DNA of 45,283 nt from contig JAGAKZ010000020.1 in the NCBI GenBank assembly GCA_017848115.1, forward strand, positions 1 through 45,283. The letters are read 5' to 3'. Numbering within the stretch: position 1 is the stretch's first letter; the number at the start of each line of letters is the position of its first letter. A program made the position numbers and the translations under genes. A model generated the notes under the pieces. That model did not search any database and was not told the origin of the DNA. It saw only the letters and a list, made by a program, of their open reading frames with translations. The stretch comes from Oscillospiraceae bacterium (GTDB lineage Bacteria; Bacillota; Clostridia; Oscillospirales; Ruminococcaceae). Positions 573 to 31,992 of the stretch are shown piece by piece.

Positions 573-1751
573 ATGAGTAGATTTTCTGGTGCTCAGGGTT
601 CTGCAGGAAGTGCAGTTGATGGGCTCGATTTTGAAAAGAAGCCGGCAAAGAAAAGTGCTTCGCCAAAAAATCAAAGAGAAAATACTTCAGAAGAAAACAA
701 GTCAACCTACAAATTTAAAACCAAGGATCTGGCTTTTAACTGCAGACAGCTTAGTGCGATGCTGTCGTCAGGGTTGACACTTGTAAAGGCTCTTGACATT
801 TTAAGTAAAGAGCAGGAGAATGATAAGGCAAAGAGAATATGGATTGATATCTATGAACAGGTTCAAAAAGGTGAATCATTCTCGACAGCACTTGAAATGC
901 AGGGCGACGCGTTCCCTCCGTTTCTAAAAAGTATGGTAAACGCAGGTGAGAGCAGTGGTTCACTTGACGTTGTTATGAAGCGTATGGAAGCACACTACGA
1001 CAAAGAAAACAAGATGAATAACACCATCAAAGGTGCGATGATTTATCCTATTATCCTTCTTGTACTGGCAGTTGCAGTTGTTATCGTAATCTTTACTTTT
1101 ATCATGCCGGTATTGCAGCCTTTGTTTGGTGACGATTACACAAAACTTAACGTAATAGCGCAATTCCTTCTTAAAGTAAGTGACTTCCTTAAGTCCAAGT
1201 GGTACATACTTATCATCGTTGCAATCGGACTTTTCTTTGGTATAAGGTATGCTCTCAAAGTTCCGTCCGTCCGTTATAAGTTCGATATGTATAAGATAAC
1301 AGCTCCTAAGATAGGACCTCTCATGGTGAAAATCTATACTGCAAGATTTGCAAGAACACTTTCATCACTTTACTCAAGTGGTATCCCTATGGTAGAGTGT
1401 CTTGAGAGATCGTCAGCTATTCTTAACAACGCTTACATATCAGATAAGTTTGATCAGGTAATCAGTGAAGTTAAACAGGGTGAACCGCTTTCAGCAGCTA
1501 TAACAAGAACTGAAATTTTTGAATCAATGTTCTGTTCTATCATATTCGTTGGTGAAGAAGCCGGTGCTCTTGACGAGATCCTCGAAAAATCTGCTGATTA
1601 CTACGACGAAGAAGCAGACTCCGCAGTACAGAGACTTGTATCTCTCCTCGAACCGGTAATGATCATATTCCTCGGTGTTGTTATTGGTCTTATCCTTGCC
1701 GGTGTATATCCTGCTATTTACGACTCACTTAACGGTCTTGAAAATATGTAG
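573..1751 (+). CDS. pilC: Type IV pilus inner-membrane platform protein PilC (GspF family)
   Basis: Polytopic platform protein that couples the assembly/retraction ATPases to pilin insertion. The 392-residue product has a charged, probably disordered N-terminus of about 50 residues and then two T2SSF domains. The first (about 55-180) contains the typical 'LSAMLSSGLTLVKALDIL' start and the 'NAGESSGSLD' motif; the second (about 258-385) repeats this as 'LSSLYSSGIPMVECLE' and 'VGEEAGALDEIL'. Three hydrophobic segments follow the family pattern (about 155-180, 212-228, 363-383). GGAGGTGG lies just before the ATG. It opens an operon running through 7984 and has its own promoter. The assignment to PilC rather than type II secretion GspF rests on the PilM/PilO/PilT neighbours. 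Confidence 0.93.
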   Translation: MSRFSGAQGSAGSAVDGLDFEKKPAKKSASPKNQRENTSEENKSTYKFKTKDLAFNCRQLSAMLSSGLTLVKALDILSKEQENDKAKRIWIDIYEQVQKGESFSTALEMQGDAFPPFLKSMVNAGESSGSLDVVMKRMEAHYDKENKMNNTIKGAMIYPIILLVLAVAVVIVIFTFIMPVLQPLFGDDYTKLNVIAQFLLKVSDFLKSKWYILIIVAIGLFFGIRYALKVPSVRYKFDMYKITAPKIGPLMVKIYTARFARTLSSLYSSGIPMVECLERSSAILNNAYISDKFDQVISEVKQGEPLSAAITRTEIFESMFCSIIFVGEEAGALDEILEKSADYYDEEADSAVQRLVSLLEPVMIIFLGVVIGLILAGVYPAIYDSLNGLENM

Positions 1752-1802
1752 TATAAAGCAAATGTATAAAAAGTTACTCATAAACAGAGAGGTGGAAAAT
1801 TA

Positions 1803-3476
1803 ATGCTATCTTTTGATATAACAGATAGAAATATACGTATAATTAAAGGTATAGAAAACAAAAACAAAATCAGCATCAGTTCTGCTGCAACTCTTAATGT
1901 TGATGAAGACATCATCGTAAACGGTCACGTTAAGGACGTTCCAAGACTTGCAACACTCATGAACCAGAAAATAAAGCAGAACAAGATGAGTGATAAGGAA
2001 GCTATTGTAAGTATTTCTTCGAACCTGACTATTTTCAAGGAACTCAGCGTAAGAAGAATGGCTAAGGAACAGGACTTTACCAAAGCTGTAAAAGCAGAGA
2101 TGCAGGCAAGAGTTGGTATTGATGATACATATGCTATTTCTTATTCTATAGTTGAAGGTTCTTCAAATGATGCAGATATGGTAACAGTTCTTGCTACAGC
2201 CTGCCCTGCAGAAGTTATTGATTCATACAAGAGAGTTTTCTCAATGCTCGGTATCTCACTTCGCTCGGTTATCATCGGTTGTAACTGTATTACAAAGTTC
2301 CTTCTTTCAGATGATAAGAACAGATCAAAGATGCCGCTTCTCGCAGTACAGATCGACAACAACTTTATCAGCTTGAACATCTATGAAAACAGTCAGCTTT
2401 CGTTCTCAAGATTTGCGTCAATCGATCCTGCTGACTACGACAACTCTGCAGATTATGTTTACGAAGCAGTTAATGAAAACATCTTCAGAATGCTTCAGTT
2501 CCATAAGAGCAAGGGTACAGGCGAGTCTATAAGAAACGTTATACTTTACGGTGATACTAAGGAGTATGTACGTATTTCCAGAGATCTCGAACAGATGGAT
2601 ATAAACACAAGCGTTATCACAGTTCCTAAGAACGTTAAGGGATATCAGAATCTTGAAGTTCCGCTTTACGCAAACGCTATCGGTGCGATGTTCTCAAGAA
2701 ACAAGGCTACTGAGAAGATTAATCTTCTTGAATTTGGCGGTGCTACTCAGGCAATAAGTGACAGAGTTAAATCTGATAATTCGTTTACAGTTATTTTTGC
2801 TGCGTCGTTCCTTGCTTCTATCATTATTATGGGTGGTATAACACTTGGTCTTTGGGCTAAGGATAAAGGATTGCAGAAAGATATAAAAGAGATGAATGAT
2901 TATCTCAATTCTCCTAAAACAGCAGCTGAGCTTGCAAAGAGGGAATCAAGACTTGAGCTTCAGACACAGGTAAAGGAATACCAGACTATGGCTCAGATGG
3001 CTAATGATGCGATGAGATCCAGGCCATATATCGAGAGTGAGGTATACAAAAAGATAGAAGAAATTATTGCACAGACAATAAAGCAGGTACCGGATGCAGG
3101 TATTGTATTTGATCTTGAAAATAAATCAAGTAACTTTGATATAAGAAAATTTGATTATGAAGATGGTATAGTTACATTGGAGTATTGTACTCTTGCCGGA
3201 GAAAAGCCGGCACCTGAGTTTCCGGCACTTTTGGTTGAGAACCTTAAGAAGTCAGATTATTTCTATGATATTTATTATAATGGATATTCTACTGAAAGCA
3301 AAACGAACGTTACATTGTATGATACTTCTACAGTAAGTGATACTGGTACTGCTGCTGCTGTTGGTCAAACGCAGATGAGATGTTTTGCATCAGAAATAAA
3401 AATGATGGTAAAGAGTCCTGTAAAAGATTATACAGAACTTTATGCATATGGTGCCGAGGAAGTAACGGAGGAATAA
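1803..3476 (+). CDS. pilM: Fused PilM-PilN type IV pilus alignment protein
   Basis: 557 residues joining two proteins that are usually separate. Residues 1-300 are a PilM-like actin-fold ATPase domain (start 'LSFDITDRNIRIIKG', later 'LAVQIDNNFISLNIYENSQL'). Residues 306-310 read INLLE, resembling the cytoplasmic INLLP motif of PilN that normally docks into PilM. A membrane helix follows at about 328-350, then a coiled coil and a PilN-like extracellular domain. In other systems PilM and PilN form a cytoplasm-to-membrane clamp with PilO; here the contact would be covalent. GAGAGGTGG precedes the ATG. The next gene starts 6 bases downstream. No stop or frameshift is visible at the junction, so the fusion looks genuine. 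Confidence 0.85.
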   Translation: MLSFDITDRNIRIIKGIENKNKISISSAATLNVDEDIIVNGHVKDVPRLATLMNQKIKQNKMSDKEAIVSISSNLTIFKELSVRRMAKEQDFTKAVKAEMQARVGIDDTYAISYSIVEGSSNDADMVTVLATACPAEVIDSYKRVFSMLGISLRSVIIGCNCITKFLLSDDKNRSKMPLLAVQIDNNFISLNIYENSQLSFSRFASIDPADYDNSADYVYEAVNENIFRMLQFHKSKGTGESIRNVILYGDTKEYVRISRDLEQMDINTSVITVPKNVKGYQNLEVPLYANAIGAMFSRNKATEKINLLEFGGATQAISDRVKSDNSFTVIFAASFLASIIIMGGITLGLWAKDKGLQKDIKEMNDYLNSPKTAAELAKRESRLELQTQVKEYQTMAQMANDAMRSRPYIESEVYKKIEEIIAQTIKQVPDAGIVFDLENKSSNFDIRKFDYEDGIVTLEYCTLAGEKPAPEFPALLVENLKKSDYFYDIYYNGYSTESKTNVTLYDTSTVSDTGTAAAVGQTQMRCFASEIKMMVKSPVKDYTELYAYGAEEVTEE

Positions 3477-3482
3477 TTAACT

Positions 3483-4241
3483 ATGAAATTAAGTTACAGA
3501 GAAAAAATAGGACTTCTTATATTCATTGTTGCAGTTGTAATAATAGTTTTTATTGCATGGCCTATAAAGACTATTAAAGCAAATATAAAAACACATGAAT
3601 CAGAAAAAGAAAAAATACAGGTTACATATGATGATACAGTAAGATTGATAGATCAAATCCCTACTATAGAAGGGAACATAACTAGAATATACGAGGAATC
3701 TAAGGGGCTTTCTGAAGTTTTTACAATTCAAAGAGAAAACTTTGAGATAGATCAATTTATACAGAATATACTTAATAAAGATAAGTATATGCAGTCTTCA
3801 AAAAATCTGGTTTTTGTAGAGGGTGAGTTTACAGAAGAAAATGCAATTGATGGTCCTGTTGAACTGTACTATTATACGCCAGATGTTGTAGTATATCCGA
3901 TACTCGAAGCAGCAGATACAAATGGTGATATGATTGAAAAAACAGATAAGGTTCTTTATGAAAAACTTACCAATGCTCTCATTATGGAAAGTTTTGAGGA
4001 ACAAGATGTAGAGTTGCATACAGCTTCTGTTGATATGAAGTTTACAAAAGAAGGACTTCTTGCTTTTCAGGATGAATTAAAGGAACTTGATAAAGGTGTG
4101 CGTATAACTTCTGTTACAATAGATGATTATAAATTCGGACTTATTGACGAGTTACCTGAAAATATAGGTTATTCAACAGGTAAAGTTACCTTTAGTTTCT
4201 ATACAATGCAGCAGATTCAGGAACCTGTATTTGCAGATTAA
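3483..4241 (+). CDS. pilO: PilO-like pilus alignment protein
   Basis: 252-residue bitopic protein: short cytoplasmic N-terminus, one membrane helix at about 9-27, a coiled-coil stretch (about 30-90), and a mixed alpha/beta extracellular domain. PilO partners PilN in the envelope part of the alignment complex. Sequence conservation in this family is low, so the call rests on architecture and on position directly after the PilM-PilN gene and inside the pilus operon. Its SD (GGAGG) lies in the last codons of the preceding gene, so the two are probably translationally coupled. Confidence 0.7.
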   Translation: MKLSYREKIGLLIFIVAVVIIVFIAWPIKTIKANIKTHESEKEKIQVTYDDTVRLIDQIPTIEGNITRIYEESKGLSEVFTIQRENFEIDQFIQNILNKDKYMQSSKNLVFVEGEFTEENAIDGPVELYYYTPDVVVYPILEAADTNGDMIEKTDKVLYEKLTNALIMESFEEQDVELHTASVDMKFTKEGLLAFQDELKELDKGVRITSVTIDDYKFGLIDELPENIGYSTGKVTFSFYTMQQIQEPVFAD

Positions 4242-4256
4242 TTATTGTAGATTTTA

Positions 4257-4283
4257 AGGGAGGTTGTCAAGTGCGATCTCCCT
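4257..4283 (+). other. Hairpin between pilO and the large minor pilin gene
   Basis: AGGGAG (4257-4262) pairs with CTCCCT (4278-4283), and the stem can extend inward with GU pairs. It is followed by an A-rich, not a T-rich, run, so it is not a classical terminator. It might tune mRNA processing or expression of the downstream gene. Low certainty. Confidence 0.3.
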
Positions 4284-4325
4284 AAAAATGTAAAGTTGAG
4301 ATTTTATCAGAAAGGTGGAGGAAAA

Positions 4326-6680
4326 ATGAAAAACGGCAAGGAAAAAAAGCCAAAGGTTTTTAAGGGTGCTGTTTTATTTACTGTTTTGGTAATCATGGTT
4401 GTTATGCTTATAATGATGCTTACAACTATAGCTTTGGCAGGTACAGCGAGTAAAAGAGCATATTCTGAACATTTTGATCATCAGTCTATGAGTACTGCTA
4501 GATCAGTTGTTGATTCTGTCATTTATTCATTGAGATCTGATAATGCAACACTTGGTGAAGAAATAGTTACACAGCTGACTTCTGTTGGTGATGTGGTTGA
4601 TGTTCAGGTGAATGACGGGAATAATCTCGGTGAAGGATTTGGTACAGTACAAAATATCAGATTTGAATATGTAGGTAGCGATGACGAGTATGGTTACAAC
4701 ATAATGGGTACTGGTAAGCCTATAATCAAAGTTACTGCTAGTGTTGAAACTGGTGGGGAAACTTCAACGTTTTCACAGTATGTTATAGGGTCAAAAACTA
4801 CTAAAAATTCCACAAGTTCCGGTGGTGGTCTTATCGCACTTGGTGGATATTCAGGTGCAGAATCTCCTCAGCTTACAGCGGTAGCGCCTGCTTATATTGG
4901 TATTAATGATGCATTTAAATATTCAAATGTAGTTTCATTTACAGATGATTTTGTATTTACTTCATTGCTGGTAAATAGTTCTATACAAGTTAAAACACAT
5001 CCGGCAAATGCTCTTGCCAAGGGCATGGGAATGTCTGTAATGGGTAATATGTTTACCAGTGATGGTGTGTTTACTATGAATTCAAGTTTTTTGCCAACAG
5101 ATAGTGATGTTATTACAGATTTGCCATATCTGTATGTAGATGGAGCGCTAAATATAAATGATGGTATAAGTGTTGGTTCTTTAGATACACCAATGAATAT
5201 TTATTGTGGAAGATATATTGGTCCTGGAAATGGTGCTTCTTCTGGATATGCTAATATATATTGTTACAATACCGGAAATTCTCCTAAGCCTGTAGATTAT
5301 TCTTTTTCATTGTCATCAGGCGAGCTTGCATCTGAAGCATATGCCAAAGAATCTTGGAGTTGTCTAGGCGCGGCAGCAGAAACAAAACTTCTTTCATGGG
5401 CTCAAAGCACACTCTCAACAGATGCTAAAAGAACAGAATTTCAAACAGGAAACTTTTATACTATGGGAAATCTTGAACTTAAGCAAAAAGTTCAGGTAGA
5501 TGGTGACATATATGTAGATGGTGATTTACATGTAGGTACTATTGAGGGAAATATAAACGGTAATATATATGTAAAAGGTAATGTAAGTGGAGATACTGCG
5601 GCTATTGCCTCAAAAATATATAATGGTGCTGCGATTCCGGAAAATATATATAATCCATTCCCGGCTGCTTTGCCGTCAGGAGTAAACAGTTTCTTATCAG
5701 GAAACCTCAGAAAAACTAGTTTGCTTGCAGATGTAGTTGTTACTACGGATGCTGTAAGAAATGAGTTTTATGATAGTACAACAGGTGGCTTTAAAAACGC
5801 TGTAAACGCATCTGACGGTGATATAAGTTCATCAGGATATCTTGTTTACAAAGGTGGTAATGCTGGAAACATAACCGCTCAGTATATTGATGGTACTTCT
5901 GTTCCCAACATAAAGAAAAGTCCTCGTGTTAATGTGGTAGGCTATGAGTATGATGTTATTATAACCAACTCTTGTATGCTTACAGGAAGTTTTCAGGGAA
6001 TAAACTTCTATTTTAAACCGACAACAGATATCTGGATAAATCTCGAAAATGTTACACTCAACAACTGTAATATACTTGTTGATGATTCAGCAGGTTCTGT
6101 TAATTTTTATCTTCCAACTGAAAACAGCCAATTAAAAGGAAATACTGCAGATATAGCATTGTACAACGGACTTAAGTCACCAAGAGAACCGGGAATTCCT
6201 GCAGAGTTTAAGAATTATTTTATAACCAGGTCAGATACCATTATCATGACACAGAATTATTATAATAAGTTTAAAACAGAAAGTAATATCAATATAGTAC
6301 AGTATCCGACAACAGATTCAGATCCTGATAATGACTGGATGGTTCCAGATATAAATTTCCATGCAGCAGAAGGTGCAAATGTTTTTATTAAATTTGAAAA
6401 CCCGATCACTCTTACAGGTGATATCTGTACTCCGGGAGGTACTATAGATATCAATAAGGATGGTTCCAGTGCTATTACATATCCTGCAACTCTTACATAT
6501 GAGGGGAATGCAATGGAAAAACCAGTTGGTTGTATAGGATCGATAATAGTAGATAGAGTTCAGAAACTTTCAAACGAATACAACATTTATTATGTAAACT
6601 ATCCGGCTGCATTGCCTCCTGGTGGCGGCATTATTGGAGTTTATGAATGGATTCCTCTGGAAGGTTTTGCTGACTATTAA
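4326..6680 (+). CDS. Very large PilX/GspK-like minor pilin with beta-helix-like passenger
   Basis: 784 residues from the ATG at 4326, chosen because AAAGGTGGAGG stands just before it; an in-frame ATG at 4296 lacks an SD. The N-terminus has a prepilin-like 'KVFKG|AVLFTVLVIMV' segment with a basic stretch, Gly at the likely cleavage site and a long hydrophobic helix, but no Glu at mature position 5. Absence of Glu5 is typical of GspK-type tip pilins. The remainder is extracellular and Gly/Asn/Thr-rich, with a run of short beta repeats near residues 395-425 ('VDGDIYVDGDLHVG', 'INGNIYVKGNVSGD') that recalls bactofilin-like or beta-helix folds. Probably a tip-located adhesin-type minor pilin. The binding target is unknown. 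Confidence 0.7.
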   Translation: MKNGKEKKPKVFKGAVLFTVLVIMVVMLIMMLTTIALAGTASKRAYSEHFDHQSMSTARSVVDSVIYSLRSDNATLGEEIVTQLTSVGDVVDVQVNDGNNLGEGFGTVQNIRFEYVGSDDEYGYNIMGTGKPIIKVTASVETGGETSTFSQYVIGSKTTKNSTSSGGGLIALGGYSGAESPQLTAVAPAYIGINDAFKYSNVVSFTDDFVFTSLLVNSSIQVKTHPANALAKGMGMSVMGNMFTSDGVFTMNSSFLPTDSDVITDLPYLYVDGALNINDGISVGSLDTPMNIYCGRYIGPGNGASSGYANIYCYNTGNSPKPVDYSFSLSSGELASEAYAKESWSCLGAAAETKLLSWAQSTLSTDAKRTEFQTGNFYTMGNLELKQKVQVDGDIYVDGDLHVGTIEGNINGNIYVKGNVSGDTAAIASKIYNGAAIPENIYNPFPAALPSGVNSFLSGNLRKTSLLADVVVTTDAVRNEFYDSTTGGFKNAVNASDGDISSSGYLVYKGGNAGNITAQYIDGTSVPNIKKSPRVNVVGYEYDVIITNSCMLTGSFQGINFYFKPTTDIWINLENVTLNNCNILVDDSAGSVNFYLPTENSQLKGNTADIALYNGLKSPREPGIPAEFKNYFITRSDTIIMTQNYYNKFKTESNINIVQYPTTDSDPDNDWMVPDINFHAAEGANVFIKFENPITLTGDICTPGGTIDINKDGSSAITYPATLTYEGNAMEKPVGCIGSIIVDRVQKLSNEYNIYYVNYPAALPPGGGIIGVYEWIPLEGFADY

Positions 6681-6700
6681 TTTGCAGGGAGGAGTTTTTT

Positions 6701-7048
6701 ATGAAAAAGAAAAAGACTTTTAAAGGTATGACACTTATGGAAGTCATTATCGCAATGGTTGTTATGGTTATTGCGTCATCACTCCTTGTTGTAAGTGCTG
6801 TGTCTATTATCAACAATACACGAACAGCAAGACGTGTTGTCAATAAGGTCAATGAACAGGCACCGGTTGTTGAGAATGAGGCTGTAGTGAGTGCATATGT
6901 TACAGAAGAAGAACTTAAGTTACAGATTGTTGGTGCAGCAGCTGAATATACTCTCAAAGTTGACAAATTTGAAGCTCCGACAACCCAGGCGCCTGAAGAT
7001 GAACGTTCAGGTAATCTCAGGTATTTTAAACCTGTGAGTGGAACATGA
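6701..7048 (+). CDS. Small minor pilin (type IV prepilin)
   Basis: 115 residues with a class III signal: 'KKKKTFKG|MTLMEVIIAM', i.e. basic leader, Gly-1 and Glu+5, followed by a hydrophobic helix. The extracellular part is short (about 75 residues), acidic and without cysteines. GGGAGGAG precedes the ATG. It lies 20 bases after the large PilX-like gene and 15 before another pseudopilin, as in minor-pilin operons (pilV/W/X or gspH-K). It probably belongs to the tip/priming complex. The exact equivalent (PilV or GspI) is not decidable by eye. Confidence 0.75.
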   Translation: MKKKKTFKGMTLMEVIIAMVVMVIASSLLVVSAVSIINNTRTARRVVNKVNEQAPVVENEAVVSAYVTEEELKLQIVGAAAEYTLKVDKFEAPTTQAPEDERSGNLRYFKPVSGT

Positions 7049-7063
7049 TGAAGGGAGCAGTTT

Positions 7064-7984
7064 ATGAAAAACAATAACAGAAAAAAGCTAAAAGGTTTTA
7101 CTTTGATTGAACTTGTTGTTGTAGTTGCTGTTTTTGGATTGTTGATAGCCGCGACACTTACATTTATTGCACCCGTGATGAATATACACAGAGATACTGT
7201 TCAGTATTCAGAATCAGCAGCAGTAGTTGATAATGTAAGAAGAACGATTGAAGATAACCTCAGATTTGCAAATAGAATGGATGTTTATGTAGGTCCGGAT
7301 ATTGGTATGAGTGAAACTGCATTTATAGAAAATAGTGTAGAGCAACTCAGAAATGACTTTATATTTGAAGAAACTACTGACAAAAAACGAGTAACACATT
7401 TTAATGATATTGTTTATGTAATGAAGATAAACAATCCTGAAACTTTTAAGGATATATCAAGTACAGCAGAGGAGCCCGGTAAAATATCGATATGGAGATA
7501 TGATAACGGTGTACTTAATGCTGCATCTTCAAAAGAGTGGGCTGTAAGCCAGGCACTTTATAATGAGTATGCTTTTTCTCTTTCTTTTGGTATAACTTAC
7601 AATACTTCGATGAAGACGGTTGCAGGACAAAAAAGAGAACTTATAGACAGTGCTGTTTATGATTCATATGGTGATTTTGTATCGCCTTCAAACTTTAATC
7701 TTGTTCTTGATATTTATGGTATTGATTATGCTAACAGAGCTAATACTGCTTCTTCAGATTACACCCTTTGCAGAACAAATGTTTCCAATAGTGTTGCACT
7801 TTCATTTGTCAACATGACTTCAAGTGCATCCTTGACAAATGAAGAGGTGTGTTATATCGATAAAACAGTGACTCCTCAGATTGAAAAAATAGAGGATGTG
7901 GTTCGTTACAGTTATAACCCTAGACCAGCAGGCTCTGTATCAAATGACATTTATTTTGTTTATACAGTTCCGAACCTTGCTTAA
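7064..7984 (+). CDS. PilW/GspJ-like minor pilin
   Basis: 306 residues. Class III prepilin signal 'KKLKG|FTLIELVVVVAVFG' with Glu+5, then a hydrophobic helix and a large extracellular domain of about 260 residues. Size and operon position, last of three minor pilin genes, fit PilW/GspJ-type subunits that help prime the pilus. GGGAG lies upstream of the ATG. The gene ends at a strong bidirectional terminator shared with the convergent prepilin peptidase gene. Confidence 0.75.
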   Translation: MKNNNRKKLKGFTLIELVVVVAVFGLLIAATLTFIAPVMNIHRDTVQYSESAAVVDNVRRTIEDNLRFANRMDVYVGPDIGMSETAFIENSVEQLRNDFIFEETTDKKRVTHFNDIVYVMKINNPETFKDISSTAEEPGKISIWRYDNGVLNAASSKEWAVSQALYNEYAFSLSFGITYNTSMKTVAGQKRELIDSAVYDSYGDFVSPSNFNLVLDIYGIDYANRANTASSDYTLCRTNVSNSVALSFVNMTSSASLTNEEVCYIDKTVTPQIEKIEDVVRYSYNPRPAGSVSNDIYFVYTVPNLA

Positions 7985-7996
7985 AAGTTTATAAAA

Positions 7997-8024
7997 ATGC
8001 AGCCTTGCACTTGCAAGGCTGCAT
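7997..8024. terminator. Bidirectional intrinsic terminator
   Basis: Perfect 12-bp stem (7997-8008 with 8013-8024) and a 4-base loop, flanked by A-rich and weakly T-rich sequence, between the convergent minor pilin and prepilin peptidase genes. Confidence 0.8.
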
Positions 8025-8034
8025 AAAATGTGAT

Positions 8035-8871
8035 TTACACCTGAGGATAAGTAAACAGTGACATATACCAGTCAATTATCTGATTTCCCCAGAGTGTACC
8101 AAATACTATTCCAATAGCAAGGTACGGTCCAAAAGAGATTTTTGATTCTTTTCCTCTTATCTTGCCTATTACTCCGACCACTGCAGCTGTGAATATTCCG
8201 ATAAATGCAGAAGCAACAATACATTTTGTTCCGATAAGCAATCCGGCACACAGCATAAGTAGTGTGTCTCCAAGCTCGATTCCTCTGATTCTTTCACCAT
8301 ATTTCTTTTTTGTGTATATAGTTGATACTTCACCTATGATAAAGAAAGGAACACTGATGCATACAGCGCCGATAAGTCTTTCGGGTATGGTAAGTACATC
8401 TGTGAAAATTGCGGAAAGAACAGCGAGAACGGCTAACATTACAAGATGACTGCCGTAGATTTCCATTGTGTCATAGTCAATAAAACCTATAACTATCAGC
8501 AGTGAAAATGATATAGCAGTGATTAATCCATGAACAGGATAAGTAAAAACATCAACAAAAGTGAGTACAAGTAAGTACAGAACACAGTTGAGACTTTCGA
8601 CAAGCGGATAACGTCCGGATATCTTTTCACCGCAGCCACGGCATTTTCCTTTTAGAAAAAGCCAGCTGAACACAGGGACAAGATCATAAAAACGGATTTT
8701 TGTACCGCAGGTCATACAGTGTGAAGAACGCTTTACAAGTGATTCTCCCTTTGGAATACGGTATATACAGACATTTAAAAAACTGCCTATACACAGTCCG
8801 AAAAATGAAGTGATGAGATAAGCAATCAGATATGCTCTGACATCAAGGAACCGGGAATCAAGAAATATCAT
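8035..8871 (-). CDS. pilD: Prepilin peptidase / N-methyltransferase (PilD/ComC family)
   Basis: 278-residue polytopic membrane aspartic protease that would cleave the class III leaders of all local prepilins and N-methylate the new N-terminus. Visible features: the N-terminal 'GSFLNVCIYRIP' motif, a cytoplasmic zinc-type tetracysteine (CMTCG ... CRGCG), and two catalytic aspartates, in 'GFIDYDTMEI' and in 'GIELGDTLLM'. The second motif is usually GxGDxK; here the Lys position is Thr, a mild deviation. GGAGG precedes the ATG on the minus strand. It is the only pilus gene on this strand, convergent with the minor pilins and divergent from pilB. Confidence 0.92.
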   Translation of the reverse strand: MIFLDSRFLDVRAYLIAYLITSFFGLCIGSFLNVCIYRIPKGESLVKRSSHCMTCGTKIRFYDLVPVFSWLFLKGKCRGCGEKISGRYPLVESLNCVLYLLVLTFVDVFTYPVHGLITAISFSLLIVIGFIDYDTMEIYGSHLVMLAVLAVLSAIFTDVLTIPERLIGAVCISVPFFIIGEVSTIYTKKKYGERIRGIELGDTLLMLCAGLLIGTKCIVASAFIGIFTAAVVGVIGKIRGKESKISFGPYLAIGIVFGTLWGNQIIDWYMSLFTYPQV

Positions 8872-8963
8872 AAGATTTTCCTCCTTAAATTTTTCTTATA
8901 TCATCATTTTAGCATAAAATAAACTATTATTCAATAAAAATTTAAATGATTTGGAGGCTGGTT

Positions 8964-10634
8964 ATGAGAAACATACCAATAGGTCAATACTTAGTAGAAC
9001 AGAACATGATCACAACTGAGCAGCTCGACAGAGCTCTCTTTGCCCAGAGAGAGGCACAGGGCCAGAAACGTTTTGGTGAAGTGATCGTAGAAATGGGGTA
9101 TATGTCAGAGATCAAGTTTGCCCAGGCACTTGCAGGAAAACTCAAAGTACCTTATGTAGATCTCCAGACATTCAAAATCGACGATGAAGCGGTAAGCAAA
9201 ATTCCTGAGTCACTTGCAAAGAAACATACGGTTATAGCTATTGATATAGTCGGCAAAAGACTCACAGTTGCTACAGATGACCCGATAAACTTTAATATCC
9301 TCGAAGACGTAAAGGTTATCACAGGTATGGATACTATCCCTGTACTTGCAACACGTTCAGCAATCAACAAAGCTATCGGTGACAAGTACACCATGGCAAA
9401 TATCGACAGCGTAAACGAGAGTCTTAACCAGTTCGGCATGGACGATGCAGATGATGAAGCATCCAAGGAAAGAGTAGAAAGCGCTCCTATCGTTAAGCTT
9501 GCTACTACAATAGTTGAAAACTCATTCAGAGCAGAGGCTACCGATATTCATATCGAACCTTTTAAAACTTATACAAAGATCCGTATCCGTGTAAACGGTG
9601 ACCTTATGGAACTCATGAGCATATCTCCGGCAGTTCACACAGCACTTACAACACGTATAAAACTTATAAGCGGTATGAACATCGCTGAAAAGCGTGTACC
9701 GCAGGACGGTCGTTTCTCACAGGTCGTAGACGGTTGCGAACTCGACGTCCGTGTATCCGCACTTCCTATGGTATGCGGTGAAAAGATAGTTATCCGTATC
9801 CTTTCAACAGGTCAGATCTCACTTCGTAAGATCACAGACCTCGGTATGAATGACTACAACTATAAGATGTTTGAAAGCATGATCAAGTGTCCTCATGGCG
9901 TTATCCTCGTTACAGGACCTACAGGTAGCGGTAAATCTACAACACTTTACGCAGCGCTCGGCGAACTTGCAAAGCCTGATGTAAACGTAGTTACAGTTGA
10001 AGACCCGGTAGAAAAAAATATCGATGGCGTAAACCAGTGTCAGGTAAACGTAAAAGCAGGTATGACATTCTCAGCTGCTCTTCGTTCTATTCTCCGTCAG
10101 GACCCTGATATCGTTATGATCGGTGAAATGCGTGACTCGGAAACAGCCGATATCGCTATCCGAGCAGCTATCACAGGTCACTTGGTTCTCTCCACACTTC
10201 ATACAAATGACGCTGCATCAACTATCGTTCGTCTTGTAGATATGGGTGTTGCTCCGTACATGGTTGCTACATCACTTATCGGTGTTGTTGCACAGCGACT
10301 TGTAAAGGTACTCTGTCCAAGATGCCGCAGACCAAGAATGTCAAACGACGAAGACAATCAGCTCATGCATATTCCTGCATCTGTTCAGATCTATGACGCT
10401 GTAGGTTGCCCAGAGTGTAACAATACAGGTTATAAGGGAAGAACTGCTATTCATGAAATCATCCACTGTTCATCAGGTATATCCACACTTATCGCTGAGG
10501 GAGCAGGTAAGGAACAGCTTGAAAACGCTGCTAAGAAAAACGGTACAAAACTCCTCAGAGATAACGTATCCGAACTCGTTCAGTTAGGTAAGACTACTAT
10601 AGACGAGCTTGTCAGAGTAACATATTCTGTATAA
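8964..10634 (+). CDS. pilB: Type IV pilus assembly ATPase PilB
   Basis: 556 residues from the ATG at 8964, preceded by TTGGAGG; an in-frame ATG at 8946 lies upstream of this SD and is rejected. An N-terminal MshEN-type domain covers about residues 1-150. The GspE-type ATPase core has Walker A GPTGSGKS at 318-325, Walker B 'DPDIVMIGEMRD' and the His box 'GHLVLSTLHTND'. A zinc-binding tetracysteine (C451-x2-C454 and CPEC near 481) distinguishes extension ATPases from PilT. It powers pilus polymerisation at the PilC platform. pilT follows 45 bases downstream, probably in the same transcript. Confidence 0.95.
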   Translation: MRNIPIGQYLVEQNMITTEQLDRALFAQREAQGQKRFGEVIVEMGYMSEIKFAQALAGKLKVPYVDLQTFKIDDEAVSKIPESLAKKHTVIAIDIVGKRLTVATDDPINFNILEDVKVITGMDTIPVLATRSAINKAIGDKYTMANIDSVNESLNQFGMDDADDEASKERVESAPIVKLATTIVENSFRAEATDIHIEPFKTYTKIRIRVNGDLMELMSISPAVHTALTTRIKLISGMNIAEKRVPQDGRFSQVVDGCELDVRVSALPMVCGEKIVIRILSTGQISLRKITDLGMNDYNYKMFESMIKCPHGVILVTGPTGSGKSTTLYAALGELAKPDVNVVTVEDPVEKNIDGVNQCQVNVKAGMTFSAALRSILRQDPDIVMIGEMRDSETADIAIRAAITGHLVLSTLHTNDAASTIVRLVDMGVAPYMVATSLIGVVAQRLVKVLCPRCRRPRMSNDEDNQLMHIPASVQIYDAVGCPECNNTGYKGRTAIHEIIHCSSGISTLIAEGAGKEQLENAAKKNGTKLLRDNVSELVQLGKTTIDELVRVTYSV

Positions 10635-10679
10635 GGTTTATAGTGCGATATAAAAAAATGTAAAACGGAGGTTTATTTG

Positions 10680-11753
10680 ATGACAGCTATAGATATTGAT
10701 AAGATTCTCGATGAAGCCAGAGTGCTTGGGTGTTCAGACTTGCACTTCACTTATGGCATAGCACCTGTAGTAAGACTTAACGGTGCTCTGAGAAAACTCA
10801 GCTCTTACGATATAATGGACGAAGAAACTATCGTAGACGTTGCAGAACAGATTATTCCGGACGAAATGAAAGATCGTCTTCATGCACACCTTGACTGTGA
10901 CTTTTCATTTACCACAAAGAGAGGTTACAGACACAGAGTAAATGTATTCAGACAGAGAGAAAAGACAGCTATTGCTATACGTCTTCTCAGAAATGATATT
11001 CCTACACTTGAAGATCTTATGCTTCCGCCTATCCTTGCGGACTTTGCAATGAGACCGAGAGGACTTGTTCTTATAACAGGACCTACAGGTAGTGGTAAGT
11101 CAACAACTCTTGCAGCTATGCTTGACTATGCAAACTTAAACAAGAGTGCTCATATCATCACTATCGAAGACCCTATAGAATACGTTCATGAACACAAACG
11201 CTGTATGGTAAACCAGCGTGAAGTCGGACCTGACGTTCCTGACTTTGCTGCTGCGCTTCGTTCCGCACTCCGTGAAGACCCGGATATCATCCTCGTTGGA
11301 GAAATGCGTGACCTTGAAACAGTTACAGCTGCCGTAACAGCCGCTGAAACAGGTCACCTTGTACTTTCTACACTTCATACAACCAGTGCGGCAGATACCA
11401 TCAACCGTATCATCGACGTTTATCCTGAACATCAGCAGGTACAGATCAGAACACAGCTTGCAAACGTTCTTGTAGGTATCATGGCTCAGACACTTATCCC
11501 TAAGGCTGACGGAAAAGGCCGTATAGCTGCTATGGAAATTCTCAACGTTACAGATGCTTGCTCTGCTATGATCAGAGATAACAAGGTTCATCTTATCCAG
11601 TCTGCTATTCAGACAGGTAAGCAATTCGGTATGATGTGTCTTGACCAGGAACTTGCACGTATGACAAGACAGGGCATCATTCACGAATCCGATGCGCTTG
11701 AACGTTGTCAGGATAAGCTTGAATTCTATCGTTTTCTTAATGCAGGGGAATAA
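10680..11753 (+). CDS. pilT: Pilus retraction ATPase PilT
   Basis: 357 residues. Begins with the PAS-like 'LDEARVLGCSDLHFTYG' segment typical of PilT. Walker A GPTGSGKS at 134-141, Walker B 'DPDIILVGEMRD', His box 'GHLVLSTLHTTSA', and a C-terminal 'AMIRDNKVHLI' equivalent to the AIRNLIRE motif linked to retraction. No tetracysteine. Its presence implies retractile, twitching-type pili. I place the start at the ATG 10680 (GGAGG plus 8 bases); a TTG three bases upstream is a weaker alternative. Followed by a clear terminator. Confidence 0.94.
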   Translation: MTAIDIDKILDEARVLGCSDLHFTYGIAPVVRLNGALRKLSSYDIMDEETIVDVAEQIIPDEMKDRLHAHLDCDFSFTTKRGYRHRVNVFRQREKTAIAIRLLRNDIPTLEDLMLPPILADFAMRPRGLVLITGPTGSGKSTTLAAMLDYANLNKSAHIITIEDPIEYVHEHKRCMVNQREVGPDVPDFAAALRSALREDPDIILVGEMRDLETVTAAVTAAETGHLVLSTLHTTSAADTINRIIDVYPEHQQVQIRTQLANVLVGIMAQTLIPKADGKGRIAAMEILNVTDACSAMIRDNKVHLIQSAIQTGKQFGMMCLDQELARMTRQGIIHESDALERCQDKLEFYRFLNAGE

Positions 11754-11941: not shown

Positions 11942-12017
11942 TTAGACAAGATAAAAAATATTGTATATGAAGCAGGTAAAAACTTGTTTCGCAACAAATA
12001 GAAGGGATCTGATTTTT

Positions 12018-12539
12018 ATGAAGAAGTTTAAGGGATTTACACTTATCGAGCTTATAGTGGTTATTGCAATTATCGGAGTTCTGGCGGCTATACTTGTTCC
12101 AGCAATGATGGGGTGGGTTGTAAGATCAAGAATTACAACATACAATAATAATGCAAGCGAAATATGCAGTCAGATGCAGATTACTATGACAGATCTTAGT
12201 ACCGGTTCAGATGGGTTTATACTTAATGATTATGTTGTTGTATGTAATAATGGCAGTATCAGTACGACACCTGCAATAAGTGATACGGATGTTCTTGACA
12301 GAATTGCGGATATAAATAATAATCTCACAGATGTTTCAAATGTTGACTGGGCAGTTAAGATTGAAGATAGTATAGTAAGAGGTGTCGCTTTGTCAGGAAA
12401 CAATTGTTCTAATGTAGGAGGTTTTCCGGTACAGTGTCCGTCAGCTAAAGATTATAAGATGTTAGCAGGCTCCAGTATTGAGGATTATCTTGATTGTGCG
12501 CAAGGAACTGAAGATTGGGCAGACAAGAAGATTTCATAA
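12018..12539 (+). CDS. Type IV pilin (second major-type pilin)
   Basis: 173 residues from the ATG at 12018; the longer in-frame start at 11961 would put extra residues before the leader. Canonical prepilin signal 'MKKFKG|FTLIELIVV' with Glu+5. Its first 34 residues are identical to those of the pilin at 12891, while the DNA differs at many synonymous sites. The head is divergent but keeps the motif 'DWAVKIEDSIVRGVAL' followed by GGFP (134-137), in the same place as the GGYPN of the other pilin. Four cysteines outside the helix region may form disulphides. It has its own consensus promoter and terminator, so it is monocistronic and independently regulated. Confidence 0.88.
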   Translation: MKKFKGFTLIELIVVIAIIGVLAAILVPAMMGWVVRSRITTYNNNASEICSQMQITMTDLSTGSDGFILNDYVVVCNNGSISTTPAISDTDVLDRIADINNNLTDVSNVDWAVKIEDSIVRGVALSGNNCSNVGGFPVQCPSAKDYKMLAGSSIEDYLDCAQGTEDWADKKIS

Positions 12540-12890: not shown

Positions 12891-13382
12891 ATGAAAAAAT
12901 TCAAAGGTTTTACACTTATCGAACTTATCGTTGTTATCGCTATCATCGGTGTACTTGCTGCTATTCTCGTACCTGCTATGATGGGTTGGGTAAGAAAGGC
13001 TTCAATCAACTCAGCTAACTCAAATGCTAAGTCTGTATTTACAAATGCTCAGACAGTAGCTCAGGAATTTGAGACACTTGGACAGGTAGTTAGTAATGAT
13101 GTTTCTTTTGCGGGTGGGACTGCTAGTAATGATGTAACTTTTACTCCAGCTGGTGCAACTGCACAACGTTCATATGTTAATGAAGTAAATGATTCTATGA
13201 CATCTTCAAACGCTAGTTCAGCATGGGCTGTAAGAGTTAATAATAATATTGTTGAAGCTGCTGTGTTCTCTACTAATGGTGCAACATATATGGGTGGTTA
13301 TCCAAATCCAGCACCTACTGATTCTTCAAGACTTTGGTCTGTTGGCGGTCTTTCATCAGCAGTAAGTGGTGGTTCATGGTAA
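12891..13382 (+). CDS. pilA: Major type IV pilin
   Basis: 163 residues. Leader 'MKKFKG', then mature 'FTLIELIVVIAIIG' with Glu5, the hydrophobic N-terminal helix, an amphipathic helix (about 42-62, 'NSNAKSVFTNAQTVAQEF'), and a Ser/Thr/Asn-rich head. The head contains 'AWAVRVNNNIVEAAVF' (111-126) and GGYPN (135-139). No cysteines. AGGAGG stands 8 bases before the ATG. The exact consensus promoter, the structured leader and preference for C-ending Ile codons in the conserved part suggest this is the abundant fibre subunit. The head motif recurs five times in the protein encoded at 19348-21756. Confidence 0.92.
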   Translation: MKKFKGFTLIELIVVIAIIGVLAAILVPAMMGWVRKASINSANSNAKSVFTNAQTVAQEFETLGQVVSNDVSFAGGTASNDVTFTPAGATAQRSYVNEVNDSMTSSNASSAWAVRVNNNIVEAAVFSTNGATYMGGYPNPAPTDSSRLWSVGGLSSAVSGGSW

Positions 13383-19288: not shown

Positions 19289-19300
19289 TCTATAAAACAC

Positions 19301-19340
19301 AAAACCCTTCTGCAATAAATTTATACTGCAGAAGGGTTTT
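19301..19340. terminator. Bidirectional intrinsic terminator
   Basis: Perfect 14-bp stem (19301-19314 with 19327-19340), A-run on the left and T-run on the right, between convergent genes. Confidence 0.9.
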
Positions 19341-19347
19341 AGTATTT

Positions 19348-21756
19348 TTACCATTTAAAATCCGGGAATGATGCTTCACGCAATGTATTCTCTGAATATT
19401 CTATTTCCATATCATCCGGAATAGAGTTTGGGTAAGCGCCTGATTTGAATGTATTATCAGTACATATGACGCTTGCAACTTTATTTTCTTCAATAAGAAT
19501 CATATACGATGTATTTTTGGGTATGTAGTCTATTTTTCTGAGTAATGTTTCTTCGAAGGAGTAAAGGATTTCGTCTTTATCGTTTATTTCTATAAAAGAA
19601 TCGAATTTTTTATCACCTGTCAGGGCGAATTCATAAAACGGCATTACATTTCTTTTGGCATTTGTAAATTCTTCGATAGTCTGTTGTGCGGCTTTATATA
19701 TTTTATCCGCACATACATTGAGTTCACTTACTGTCAGTTCCGGATAATCAGGGAGAAATGCTTGTTTATCACCGGTAGCTTTGTATTCTTTGAGCTGTGA
19801 CCAGTCAAAAAGAATGTCAGCTGCTTCGTGTGTGAATGGGTGTTCCTTATCAAAAGGTATGTTCATATTCTGAGGAACAGCGTTTGGATAAGCACCTGAT
19901 TTAAGTTTTGTATCAGAACAAATAACAGATAGAATTTTGTTGTTTTCGATACTGATTTTGAACGTAACGTTTTTAGGCAGGTGTTTTATTTCTTCGATTA
20001 GTATGGATATAAAAGGTTTTTCAGACGTATCATCCGTACTTGGATGGAGTGAATTCCAGGAATCCTTGTCTGAAAGAGAAAACTCATAAACAGGTTCAGG
20101 TGTTCCTCCATTGTTTATAAACTCTTCGATAGAATGTTCTGCAGCCTTATATACATCTGATGCCCATGAGTTCAGTTCATTGACAGAGAGTTCAGGATAA
20201 TCGGGAAGAGCAGACTGTTTTTCATCATCGGATTTGTATTCTGTAAAGTATGACCAGTCAAAAAGAATGTCAGCTGCTTCGTGTGTGAAGAGGTTTTCCT
20301 CAAAAGGTATGTTCATATTCTGAGGAATAGCGTTTGGATAAGCGCCCGATTTAAGTCCTGTATCAGAACAAATAACAGATAAAAGTTCGTTGTCGATGAT
20401 ATTGATTCTGAAAGTAACGTTTTTAGGTAAATATTTTGAGTCTTCTATCAGCGTACTTTCAAAGGATTTTCTGATTGTGTCGTCTGAATCGTACCAGATT
20501 GATTTCCAGTTGCCGTCGTCAGAAAGGGAGAATTCATAAACAGGTTCAAGGGTTCTTCCATCGGCTATAAATTTTTCGATAGTCTGATCTGCAGTTTTGA
20601 ACATCTCTGAAGCCCATAAGTTGAGTTCGTTTACCTGAAGTTCGGGATAATCAGGAAGATTTGCCTGAGCTGTATCCGTAGATTTGTACTCTGTTAGCTT
20701 TGTCCAGTCAAAGAACAAGTGGGAAGCTTCATATTTATAAGAATTTGTGTCGTCATTGTATGGGATGTTCATATTTTGAGGAATATTATTTGGATAAGCA
20801 CCTGATTTAAGTCTGTTATCAGAGCAAACAACAGATAAAGGTTTTCCATCCTGTATAAAGAGTTTAAAAGTTATATTTTTAGGCAGATACTTTATGTTGT
20901 CTATCAATGTACGTTCAAAAGAAGGGATAATTTGACCATCATCAGTAATTCCAGATGAATGATTAAAGTTATCATCTGTAAGTGAAATTTCATAAAAATC
21001 AAGAATATCTGTATTGTTAAATTTTCCTGTAGTTTTTTCAGCGGCTTTGAAAATATCCGCTGCCCATGCATTAAGCTCATTTACAGAAAGTTCAGGATAG
21101 TCGGGAAGAGCAGCCTGTTTTTCATCATCGGCTTTGTATTCGGTAAAGTATGACCAATCAAAAAGAATATCAGTAGTTTCGTGTACGAAACGATTTTCCT
21201 CAAAAGGTATGTTCATGTTCTGAGGAATATTATTTGGATAAGCACCGCATCTGCTGCCGTTATCGGTACAGAGTACACCTGATACTTCTCCTTCAGACAT
21301 AACTACAGAGTATTTTATATCCGCCGGAATATCGTTTCCGATGCATTCTGTGAGTGAAACTATAAAATCATCATCAGAGTTGTTTGTAAAACTATGGTTT
21401 AATTTTATACCGTTGGATATGTATTTGTCTGCAACCAGTTCAGCGTTTTCAAAAATTATCTTTGCATAATTATTGAGCTTTTGCACTTCGGAAGAAGTTG
21501 AGGTAGTAGCAGATTGGTTTATTACAGCGTTTTTTAATCGTATCATATCAACTATATTGAGAGTACTGTCGTTATTGATATCATACATCTCTGTTTGTGA
21601 TTTATCTGCTTTTTTAATGTTAAGCAGAAGTTCACTTAGTGATTTTATATCGGTTGCCTTAAAATCAACAATGCCGCTGACTGCGGTTGCGGATATTGTA
21701 CCGGCAATCATACATAGTGCTGTAATTCCTGATAGTGTTTTCTTCAATTTTTTCAT
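19348..21756 (-). CDS. Secreted protein with dockerin-like segment and five tandem pilin-head-like domains
   Basis: 802 residues from the ATG at 21756 (AGAGGAC SD; the ORF is open 25 codons further without SD). Signal peptide about 1-28. Residues 33-80 contain one clear dockerin-type Ca-binding half ('YDINNDSTLNIVDMIRLK'). Then five repeats of about 150 residues start near 92, 225, 375, 525 and 676. Each has a helix (VNELNxWAxxxxKAAE), strands, an 'LPKNVTFKI' strand, then 'LSVICSD' and GAYPN (171, 319, 471, 621, 773). The helix plus the two strands and the G-[AG]-Y-P-N motif match the main pilin head (its residues 42-62, 95-139) in order and spacing. There is no class III prepilin leader, so it cannot enter the pilus as a normal subunit. 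The role is unknown; a pilus-associated or pilin-mimicking adhesin is one possibility. Confidence 0.8.
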   Translation of the reverse strand: MKKLKKTLSGITALCMIAGTISATAVSGIVDFKATDIKSLSELLLNIKKADKSQTEMYDINNDSTLNIVDMIRLKNAVINQSATTSTSSEVQKLNNYAKIIFENAELVADKYISNGIKLNHSFTNNSDDDFIVSLTECIGNDIPADIKYSVVMSEGEVSGVLCTDNGSRCGAYPNNIPQNMNIPFEENRFVHETTDILFDWSYFTEYKADDEKQAALPDYPELSVNELNAWAADIFKAAEKTTGKFNNTDILDFYEISLTDDNFNHSSGITDDGQIIPSFERTLIDNIKYLPKNITFKLFIQDGKPLSVVCSDNRLKSGAYPNNIPQNMNIPYNDDTNSYKYEASHLFFDWTKLTEYKSTDTAQANLPDYPELQVNELNLWASEMFKTADQTIEKFIADGRTLEPVYEFSLSDDGNWKSIWYDSDDTIRKSFESTLIEDSKYLPKNVTFRINIIDNELLSVICSDTGLKSGAYPNAIPQNMNIPFEENLFTHEAADILFDWSYFTEYKSDDEKQSALPDYPELSVNELNSWASDVYKAAEHSIEEFINNGGTPEPVYEFSLSDKDSWNSLHPSTDDTSEKPFISILIEEIKHLPKNVTFKISIENNKILSVICSDTKLKSGAYPNAVPQNMNIPFDKEHPFTHEAADILFDWSQLKEYKATGDKQAFLPDYPELTVSELNVCADKIYKAAQQTIEEFTNAKRNVMPFYEFALTGDKKFDSFIEINDKDEILYSFEETLLRKIDYIPKNTSYMILIEENKVASVICTDNTFKSGAYPNSIPDDMEIEYSENTLREASFPDFKW

Positions 21757-21877
21757 GATTAATGTCCTCTTTCTGTTTTTATTTATTTTTCTCCAAATTT
21801 TTTTATAATTTTGAATTATATTTTGACGCATAATTGAGTCTTTATTATAATTAAAATTATAACAGGATTATTTTTAT

Positions 21878-31137: not shown

Positions 31138-31992
31138 ATGAGCAGACAAAATATGTTTAATGACAATAATAATTGTTGTAATGATAATTACAATGAAAAT
31201 TATCGCAGAGCAAATGATTGCAGAGGACAAAAAGAAAATAACTGCGATTGCGTTATTTGTCCACCCGGTCCGATGGGACCACGCGGAATGCAGGGACCTC
31301 CGGGACCAAGAGGCCCACAGGGAGCGACAGGTCCACAGGGACCGATAGGAGAAACCGGTCCAATAGGTCCGCAGGGACCGATAGGAGAAACCGGCCCGAT
31401 AGGTCCGCAGGGACCAACAGGCGAAACCGGTCCGATAGGTCCACAGGGACCAACAGGCGAAACCGGTCCGATAGGTCCGCAGGGACCAATAGGCGAAACA
31501 GGCCCGATAGGTCCACAGGGACCAATAGGCGAAACCGGTCCGATAGGTCCGCAGGGACCGGCAGGTACAGTTCTGGGATATGCAGATTTCTATGCAGTTA
31601 TGCCACCTGATAATGCTGAAACAGTTGGTCCCGGATCCGATGTCAGCTTTCCTCAGAGCGGTACTAACAGTGGAACCGGAATTACAAGAATAGATGATGG
31701 TTCTTTTAATCTGAGTGATATCGGCACGTATCTTATAGAGTTTCAGGTAAGTGTTGATGAACCCGGACAATTACTTCTCACTTTAAACGGCGCAGATCTT
31801 GACTATACTGTTGTGGGTCGTGCGACAGGTACTTCACAGATCGTCGGAACAGCAATAATAACAACTACTGCAGTCGATTCTGTTTTAACGGTACGAAATC
31901 CGGAGGAAAATGCAACTGCATTGACTATTACACCACTCGCAGGCGGAACACGTCCTGTATCAGCACATCTCGTAATTTTACAGCTTGCATAA
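31138..31992 (+). CDS. Collagen-like (Gly-X-Y) protein with BclA-type C-terminal domain
   Basis: 284 residues. Asn/Cys-rich N-terminus (1-43, cysteines in 'NNCCND', 'NDCRG' and '[10 protein letters not shown]'), then 33 uninterrupted Gly-X-Y triplets (44-142) made largely of the unit [12 protein letters not shown], then a 140-residue beta-rich C-terminal domain ('[29 protein letters not shown]') resembling the TNF/C1q-like trimerising domain of BclA exosporium proteins. No signal peptide, as for BclA-type spore-coat proteins that are deposited from the mother cell. It should form trimeric triple-helix stalks. A spore-surface role is likely by analogy but not shown. GGAGG precedes the ATG. Ends at the first copy of the 65-bp repeat, whose hairpin acts as terminator. 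Confidence 0.85.
31330..31563 (+). repeat. 36-bp tandem repeat in the collagen-like gene
   Basis: Six full 36-bp units plus a half unit encode GPQGP(I/T)GETGPI. Such arrays in collagen-like genes vary in copy number between strains. Confidence 0.85.

Follow-up and report, generated by a model that had tools for sequence, protein, structure and literature searches.

A type IV pilin normally has a single head on a single helix, and filament contacts run chiefly through that helix. In the split pilin of Geobacter the head is encoded by a separate gene; this lone head is assembled into the filament together with the helix subunit. Among the ruminococcal pilins, Pil3 of R. flavefaciens 007C shares 51% identity with CbpC of R. 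albus 8, a cellulose-binding protein, rises 19-fold on Avicel and was found attached to cotton, and Pil4 is described as highly similar to CbpC (PMC3672088). The cellulose-adhesion protein CttA of R. flavefaciens (PMC3672088) is anchored to the scaffoldin ScaE (PMC4081043), and a survey of the dockerin proteins of R. flavefaciens FD-1 counts 155 unknown domains and mentions truncated "group 2" dockerins (PMC2930009). Here we analyse a stretch of 45,283 nucleotides from an Oscillospiraceae bacterium, referred to as the window, which holds a type IV pilus biogenesis cluster and a gene for a protein with five tandem repeats resembling the pilin head (Table 1).

Table 1. The tandem-head gene and other features of the window
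Feature	Position	Strand	Basis and remarks
Tandem pilin-head protein, 802 aa	19348..21756	-	ORF; gene flanked by one convergent and one divergent neighbour
Sec-type signal peptide, ~aa 1-26	21679..21756	-	Hydropathy; cleavage site by eye
Degenerate dockerin, aa 34-78	21523..21657	-	Pfam Dockerin_1 E 0.0035, under cut-off; first helix without calcium loop
Pilin-head repeat 1, aa 89-224, 136 aa	21085..21492	-	Pilin-head profile iE 1.3e-8
Pilin-head repeat 2, aa 225-374, 150 aa	20635..21084	-	Pilin-head profile iE 0.12, weakest of five
Pilin-head repeat 3, aa 375-524, 150 aa	20185..20634	-	Pilin-head profile iE 0.029
Pilin-head repeat 4, aa 525-675, 151 aa	19732..20184	-	Pilin-head profile iE 1.4e-5; AlphaFold2 model
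Pilin-head repeat 5, aa 676-802, 127 aa, C-terminal end of protein	19351..19731	-	Pilin-head profile iE 8.4e-4
Terminator-like hairpin, 18 pairs, T-rich tail	19300..19341	-	Just past stop codon; pattern match only
Type IV pilus biogenesis cluster	573..11753		Pfam; gene list compared with PMC3672088, section 8
T2SSF	573-1751		Pfam
PilM	1803-3476		Pfam
Minor pilin	6701-7048		No Pfam match; pilin by leader motif
Minor pilin	7064-7984		Pfam
Prepilin peptidase	8035-8871	-	Pfam
PilB-like T2SSE ATPase	8946-10634		Pfam
PilT-like T2SSE ATPase	10677-11753		Pfam
Prepilin at pil3 position, more distant head	11961..12539	+	N_methyl E 3.2e-9
Prepilin at pil4 position, closer of the window pilins to the repeats	12891..13382	+	N_methyl E 2.6e-9; pil4 by gene order against PMC3672088
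Secreted 642-aa protein with CAP domain, beside the pilin-head gene	16008-17936	+	Pfam Cohesin E 1.3e-5 at 16323-16583
BspA-type leucine-rich-repeat protein, C-terminal dockerin	22151-24439	+	Pfam; divergent neighbour of pilin-head gene
Collagen-like protein	31138-31992	+	Pfam Collagen E 3.4e-16

Read from its sequence, the window protein is, with near certainty as regards anatomy and origin, a row of five Pil4-type heads that has an export signal, lacks the assembly helix and stands behind a worn dockerin. The initial annotation had described five tandem repeats, a Sec signal, half a dockerin and no prepilin leader, and each of these elements was borne out, the repeats occupying aa 89-802. 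Its gene coordinates are likewise correct: the open frame begins at 21831, and MKKLKKTL at 21756 opens a normal-looking signal peptide. Hydropathy peaks at 1.74 at aa 11 and its mean reaches at most 0.79 after aa 35; neither a second hydrophobic stretch nor the hydrophobic N-terminal half of an assembly helix is present by this measure. A motif search of the protein for the class III leader (G/A-F-T-L-x-E) was negative and Pfam N_methyl gave no match at E 1, unlike the prepilins of the window, which do have a leader and an N-terminal methylation segment (Pfam N_methyl). Nor does the protein contain an LPxTG motif or, as judged by eye, a lipobox. Its Dockerin_1 match scores 18.0 bits against a Pfam cut-off of 22.9 bits and retains, by the loop motif, one intact calcium loop, the second (DINNDSTLNIVD, aa 59-70), which sets it apart from two-loop dockerins above the cut-off. 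Of the four motif pairs quoted earlier as shared by pilin and repeats, NAKSVF.../WASDVY..., RSYVNEVNDS/KSFESTLIED and GGYPNPAP/GAYPNAIP fall in the same alignment columns and WAVRV.../TFRIN... is one column off. The accompanying statement of near-identical spacing was generous, the loop between helix and sheet being variable in length. The alignment also revealed a tail of the form IPQNMNIPF...W in the repeats that is not common to Pil4-type pilins.

To compare the repeats with the pilin head we used a profile of ten Pil4-type heads of the genus, from which the helix and all repeats were left out, and searched it against 1001 distinct open frames (at least 90 aa) of the loci examined together with 1001 shuffled frames. 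These and related comparisons showed that: 1) with the pilin-head profile the window protein is recovered at E 3.3e-27, against 0.13 for the top-scoring shuffled frame, and all 12 tandem proteins of the genus at a full-sequence E of at most 1.5e-4. 2) The reverse profile, for which the five window repeats were the sole input, performs less well: the window pilin is matched at E 5.5e-5, and of the 23 head-bearing prepilins eight, the window pilin among them, have an E no higher than 0.0051, the best decoy being at 0.11. 3) In hhalign, a profile-profile comparison of the kind that the initial annotation had proposed as a check, the window repeats match ten full-length pilins with a probability of 96.0 (E 3.8e-9), and the alignment begins at pilin residue 31, beyond the membrane half of the helix. 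4) Local alignment of the head of the pil4-position pilin with repeats 1 to 5 gives z of 5.5, 1.4, 4.2, 6.0 and 6.0 (500 shuffles each), the value for repeat 2 thus not being significant; the pil3-position pilin gives no z above 2.8. 5) The window pilin as a query finds stretches inside the tandem proteins of two other genomes of the genus, G009 (E 9.6e-14, 44% identity) and G007 (E 2.0e-9, 43% identity). The last heads of these two proteins, ...YTPLSYYWIKKAAVNSANANAKSVF and ...YTPNIRYLVRKSSVDSANANAKSVF, restart at residue 27-28 of the pilin, ...VPAMMGWVRKASINSANSNAKSVF, and the hydrophobic half that precedes this point in the pilin is missing from them. The claim that a head has been freed from its assembly helix and multiplied is thus supported by the profiles in both directions, by hhalign, by the bridging heads of G009 and G007 and by predicted secondary structure.

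A chance or convergent likeness of an unrelated repeat to the pilin head would be in keeping with the z of repeat 2 and with the single-sequence genome searches, in which window protein and window pilin were not linked at E 0.001. Profiles and relatives do join the two, and the agreement of the two-way profiles, the bridging relatives at 43-44% identity, hhalign and the order of predicted secondary-structure elements makes coincidence extremely improbable; in our view it is already refuted. Of the two outcomes that the initial annotation had named as refuting, an unrelated predicted fold and a placement of the repeat in some other family, neither was observed: the repeats drew only weak, scattered matches from Pfam and NCBIfam, all of them below the respective cut-offs and set aside, and the predicted fold was compared with that of the pilin by secondary-structure order. 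We also searched the sequences of solved structures with two profiles, A1 (repeats and heads) and A2 (whole pilins), and neither identified a solved relative of the head. A1 matched no pilin, its best match being ElxO at E 0.012, which we take as chance. A2 matched pilins, every one from residue 1 or 2, among the entries of this search being the helix part of Geobacter, named "geopilin domain 1" in the PDB. It also matched four unrelated chains over head positions only, namely three beta-propeller proteins (E 1.7e-5 to 3.3e-5) and Scone-E (E 0.0032); no single stretch of these passes by itself, and we regard these matches too as chance.

Structure prediction points in the same direction as the profiles. 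An AlphaFold2 model of repeat 4, computed from a 45-row alignment of repeats and pilin heads, has a mean pLDDT of 84.6 and a pTM of 0.80, with the elements H2-24, E32-37, E43-45, H53-65, E74-80, E83-90 and E96-99 followed by two short helices. The pil4-position pilin, modelled from ten pilins with no repeats in the input (pLDDT 79.5, pTM 0.69), shows H3-56, E64-68, E71-73, H89-96, E105-111, E114-122 and E127-131 followed by one short helix. Helices and strands thus follow one another in the same order in repeat 4 and in the pilin head, the first helix of the repeat representing the second half only. A common fold of repeat and pilin head is therefore supported at the level of predicted secondary-structure order.

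A sample of 11 genomes of the genus, that of the window (G000) counted in, yielded 12 tandem proteins with 40 heads, two to five in each, distributed over seven genomes including the window's; an eighth, G004, has a contig-end fragment that by eye resembles the end of the G008 protein. We found no tandem protein in G001, G003 and G006, which possess pili and cohesins; in G006 there was one weak match (E 1.9e-4) within a 163-aa frame. Among the ten other genomes there is no close ortholog of the window protein, segments of which are 23-40% identical to other tandem proteins, and the genome contigs gave no match with it as the query. The same search with a four-protein alignment (A4) returned two loci, G009:C13 and G008:C319, both among the tandem loci already known. 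Cohesins exceed the Pfam cut-off in all 11 genomes, with 13 matches in G000. Dockerin_1 does so in five of the 12 tandem proteins: the five-head proteins of G009, G007 and G008 have two-loop dockerins of 49.9, 40.9 and 44.5 bits respectively (the loops called by pattern in G009 and G008 and by eye in G007, where the pattern took an overlapping stretch), and two more proteins lie just above the cut-off, at 23.4 bits, with one half only. A further four score 17.8-20.8 bits, under the cut-off, so that half dockerins of 17.8-23.4 bits are found in seven tandem proteins including that of the window. The tandem proteins of loci L007 and L041 have no Dockerin_1 match at E 0.1 and, read by eye, a single calcium loop. 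Judged from these sequences, scaffold binding appears doubtful for seven of the 12 proteins, namely the window's, the four under the cut-off and the two without a match.

Head phylogenies shed some light on the history of the tandem form. The heads of the G007 and G009 proteins correspond one for one at all five positions, and for those of G008 the correspondence covers positions 1, 2 and 4 in both trees, with position 5 added in one of the two; all three genes have a putative serC within ~9 kb. On account of these correspondences and of the common neighbour, the five-head form looks old and inherited. Heads 2-5 of the window protein are closer to one another than to any other head in the 117-head tree. 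In a 59-head tree, from which four near-duplicates among 63 heads were dropped, all 36 tandem heads lie on one side of a branch (100/98). The 117-head tree, for which 8 of the 63 were dropped and SH-aLRT is the sole support measure, leaves 50 of its 114 inner branches open; in it, three proteins have last heads that cluster with Pil4 pilins (SH-aLRT 85), away from the other 29 tandem heads. A single origin of the tandem heads is hence not established, and these placements would be compatible with a possible second capture of heads or with gene conversion. The dN/dS ratio was 0.29, 0.31, 0.35 (a pair with dS 1.5) and 0.45 in the four pairs tested, all of them from other tandem proteins; no close ortholog of the window protein being found, these values say nothing direct about it.

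The window gene stands alone, between its convergent dockerin-CAP neighbour and the divergent BspA-type gene, and lies 6 kb from the pil4-position prepilin, the last gene of the pilus cluster. In the surrounding 3 kb there are three terminator-like hairpins against 1.4 in shuffles, and promoter-like matches show no excess (12 versus 13.9). The convergent neighbour has a half dockerin recognised by eye, Thr-rich linkers and, besides its Pfam cohesin, a second cohesin-like stretch by eye; it is possibly an adaptor scaffoldin. Elsewhere in the window, the C-terminal domain of the collagen-like protein weakly resembles BclA_C (E 3.7e-7, under the cut-off). The genus also has a second pilus-like locus (L077 11527-16653, L079 2726-12301, L082 11294-17002), in which prepilin-type leaders stand on giant open frames of 1,708 to 4,730 aa. 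Among the tandem genes whose surroundings were read, that of the window alone is near a pilus cluster; the stretches covered around the others extend up to ~10 kb on each side, less at contig ends. As to whether the repeat always accompanies pilin genes, a question raised by the initial annotation, pil heads and a close pilT are present in six of the seven genomes with tandem proteins. In the seventh, G005, two tandem proteins and a lipoprotein head were found, a pil3/pil4 head was not, and pilT is present only as a 49%-identical paralogue; its assembly is in ~340 contigs and a gap is possible.

Heads without a prepilin leader are not confined to the tandem proteins. At E 1e-4, with up to 11 candidates scored per genome, the head profile matched in 61 of 396 genomes of the family, the window's genus included. 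The places examined further were selected, first for long frames and later for ordinary prepilins, so the counts that follow are not frequencies. After removal of duplicates, 62 heads of 75 aa or more remained at E 1e-4. Sorted by motif, 35 of them have a prepilin leader, 13 sit on lipoproteins (12 proteins in all, of which one is two-headed and five belong to the window's genus), ten are on zinc-ribbon proteins and four on others, two of which look like degenerate prepilins. In the window's genus and eight other genera, heads without a leader are borne by lipoproteins, by zinc-ribbon proteins and by two further membrane proteins. The pilin-only profile is weak on several of these (e.g. L117 0.0046, L129 752-1639 0.078, L130 0.23), and for L113, L120 and L121 the first stretch that it lists is not within the head; such cases depend on the joint profile, in which the tandem heads are included and which gave no match under E 0.5 against 890 shuffled frames. 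In the genus, lipoproteins ending in a single pilin head are found at L107 2741-3961, L108 2458-3798, L109 3385-4653, L110 3847-5055 and L111 3638-4321; the first four have, by eye, ~200 aa in common before the head, and no Pfam family was found in that of L107. At L119 1681-3993 (three in a row) and L122 1623-2417 an N-terminal zinc ribbon is followed by a membrane helix and a pilin head, and in L119 1681-2616 and 3217-3993 and in L122 this helix is still pilin-like (e.g. GILAAILLPAMSGYVSKSK), as if the leader had been swapped out. Leaderless forms fall at several places among the pilins in the 117-head tree, and this scatter suggests several separate relocations of heads. The pilin head might accordingly be a portable surface module of this bacterial family, cut from its helix several times, placed on tandem dockerin proteins, on lipoproteins (in one case as a pair of heads) and on zinc-ribbon or other anchors in the membrane, and keeping one ligand throughout; the balance leans against this broader proposal. 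If it is true, cells wear one binder on pilus, scaffold and membrane, and the dockerin form unites in one protein both cellulose-adhesion systems of rumen ruminococci, the pilus and the cellulosome.

The reading that we favour for the window protein is a pilin-derived multivalent fibre adhesin held by its dockerin, to which we assign as a whole a probability of about 0.42. The protein would be exported by Sec and kept on a scaffoldin cohesin or on the cell surface by its dockerin, which has two loops in three relatives and one loop here. Its five heads, presumably unable to enter the filament, would display the ligand-binding surface of the pilin many times over and would bind what the pilus binds, in all likelihood a plant-cell-wall polysaccharide such as cellulose. 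Export, anchoring and the repeated ligand surface would together couple the pilus and cellulosome modes of holding fibre. The adhesin function as such we likewise place somewhat short of even odds. The link to cellulose comes by way of the literature on related pilins, and the binding surface may not be kept, since identity between repeat 4 and the 11 pilin heads of alignment A1 is only 13-24%. The worn dockerin of the window protein, the weak or missing ones of six relatives, and the three genomes with pili and cohesins and no tandem protein also count against this reading. Of the functional guesses made in the initial annotation, a ligand common to pilus and tandem protein fits best.

That annotation had also envisaged action on the pilus itself, by lateral binding or competition. 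In such a role, contacts between heads would attach the tandem protein along the pilus or at its tip, where it would bundle, cap or regulate the filament or act as a competitor of pilin subunits. This would account for the proximity of the window gene to the pilus cluster and for the co-occurrence with pil heads and pilT in most of the genomes. Against it stand the other tandem genes, around which no pilus cluster was seen in the stretches read, the lack in the tandem protein of the helix, the main site of filament contacts, and G005, which has tandem proteins without a detected main pilus cluster, subject to the possible assembly gap; we thus hold an accessory role at the pilus to be unlikely, and action on the pilus less likely than a common ligand. 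Shed heads might instead serve as a decoy or shield, absorbing phages or antibodies that bind the pilus or blocking its receptor for competitors. Multivalency, the export signal and use of the same domain as the exposed pilus subunit would suit this role; far divergence of the heads from the pilin, dN/dS below 0.5 in every pair tested and a dockerin that would keep the decoy on the cell or scaffold instead of releasing it make it quite improbable. Somewhat unlikely, in our estimate, is the option that the pilin head is a general extracellular small-ligand or structural module which, on various anchors, senses or binds something other than plant fibre, the tandem protein being one case of such reuse. 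It draws on the leaderless heads of the lipoproteins, zinc-ribbon and other membrane proteins across the genera; however, among the forms examined the dockerin was seen only with the tandem form, and every genome of the genus that was searched has cohesins.

In the window protein the pilin head has become a free, multiplied module provided with an anchor, and surviving relatives reveal the point of the cut. A long-standing question, whether the pilin head alone, off the filament, binds plant fibre, is thereby made testable. The window bacterium is a relative of rumen fibre degraders, and the findings suggest that it has a second means of holding plant fibre. Pilin head and dockerin are each known; in the titles and abstract openings of the open-licence literature we came across neither a combination of the two nor free heads in tandem. 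As in the split pilin of Geobacter, the heads are encoded apart from the helix; those of the window protein differ in being tandem and in having a signal peptide of their own and a dockerin. In its role the protein may be comparable to CttA, as a non-catalytic adhesin on a scaffoldin, a likeness of function that implies no kinship. With the dockerin proteins of R. flavefaciens FD-1 it shares a signal peptide, a dockerin, truncated in some of those proteins too, and unannotated domains (PMC2930009). The main text of that survey contains neither "pilin" nor "type IV"; here, by contrast, we identify the unannotated domain as a pilin head. Models of Pfam and NCBIfam all stayed below their cut-offs on it, and the identification may put a name to one of the many unknown domains of ruminococcal dockerin proteins (PMC2930009). 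Close to it, too, are Pil3 and Pil4 of R. flavefaciens 007C and CbpC: the window shows like biogenesis genes and pilin positions (PMC3672088), and the head domain of its pilins at the Pil3/Pil4 positions is homologous to the tandem repeats. Pil3, Pil4 and CbpC have a class III leader, an assembly helix and one head, whereas the window protein has neither leader nor helix, and instead five heads and the remnant of a dockerin.
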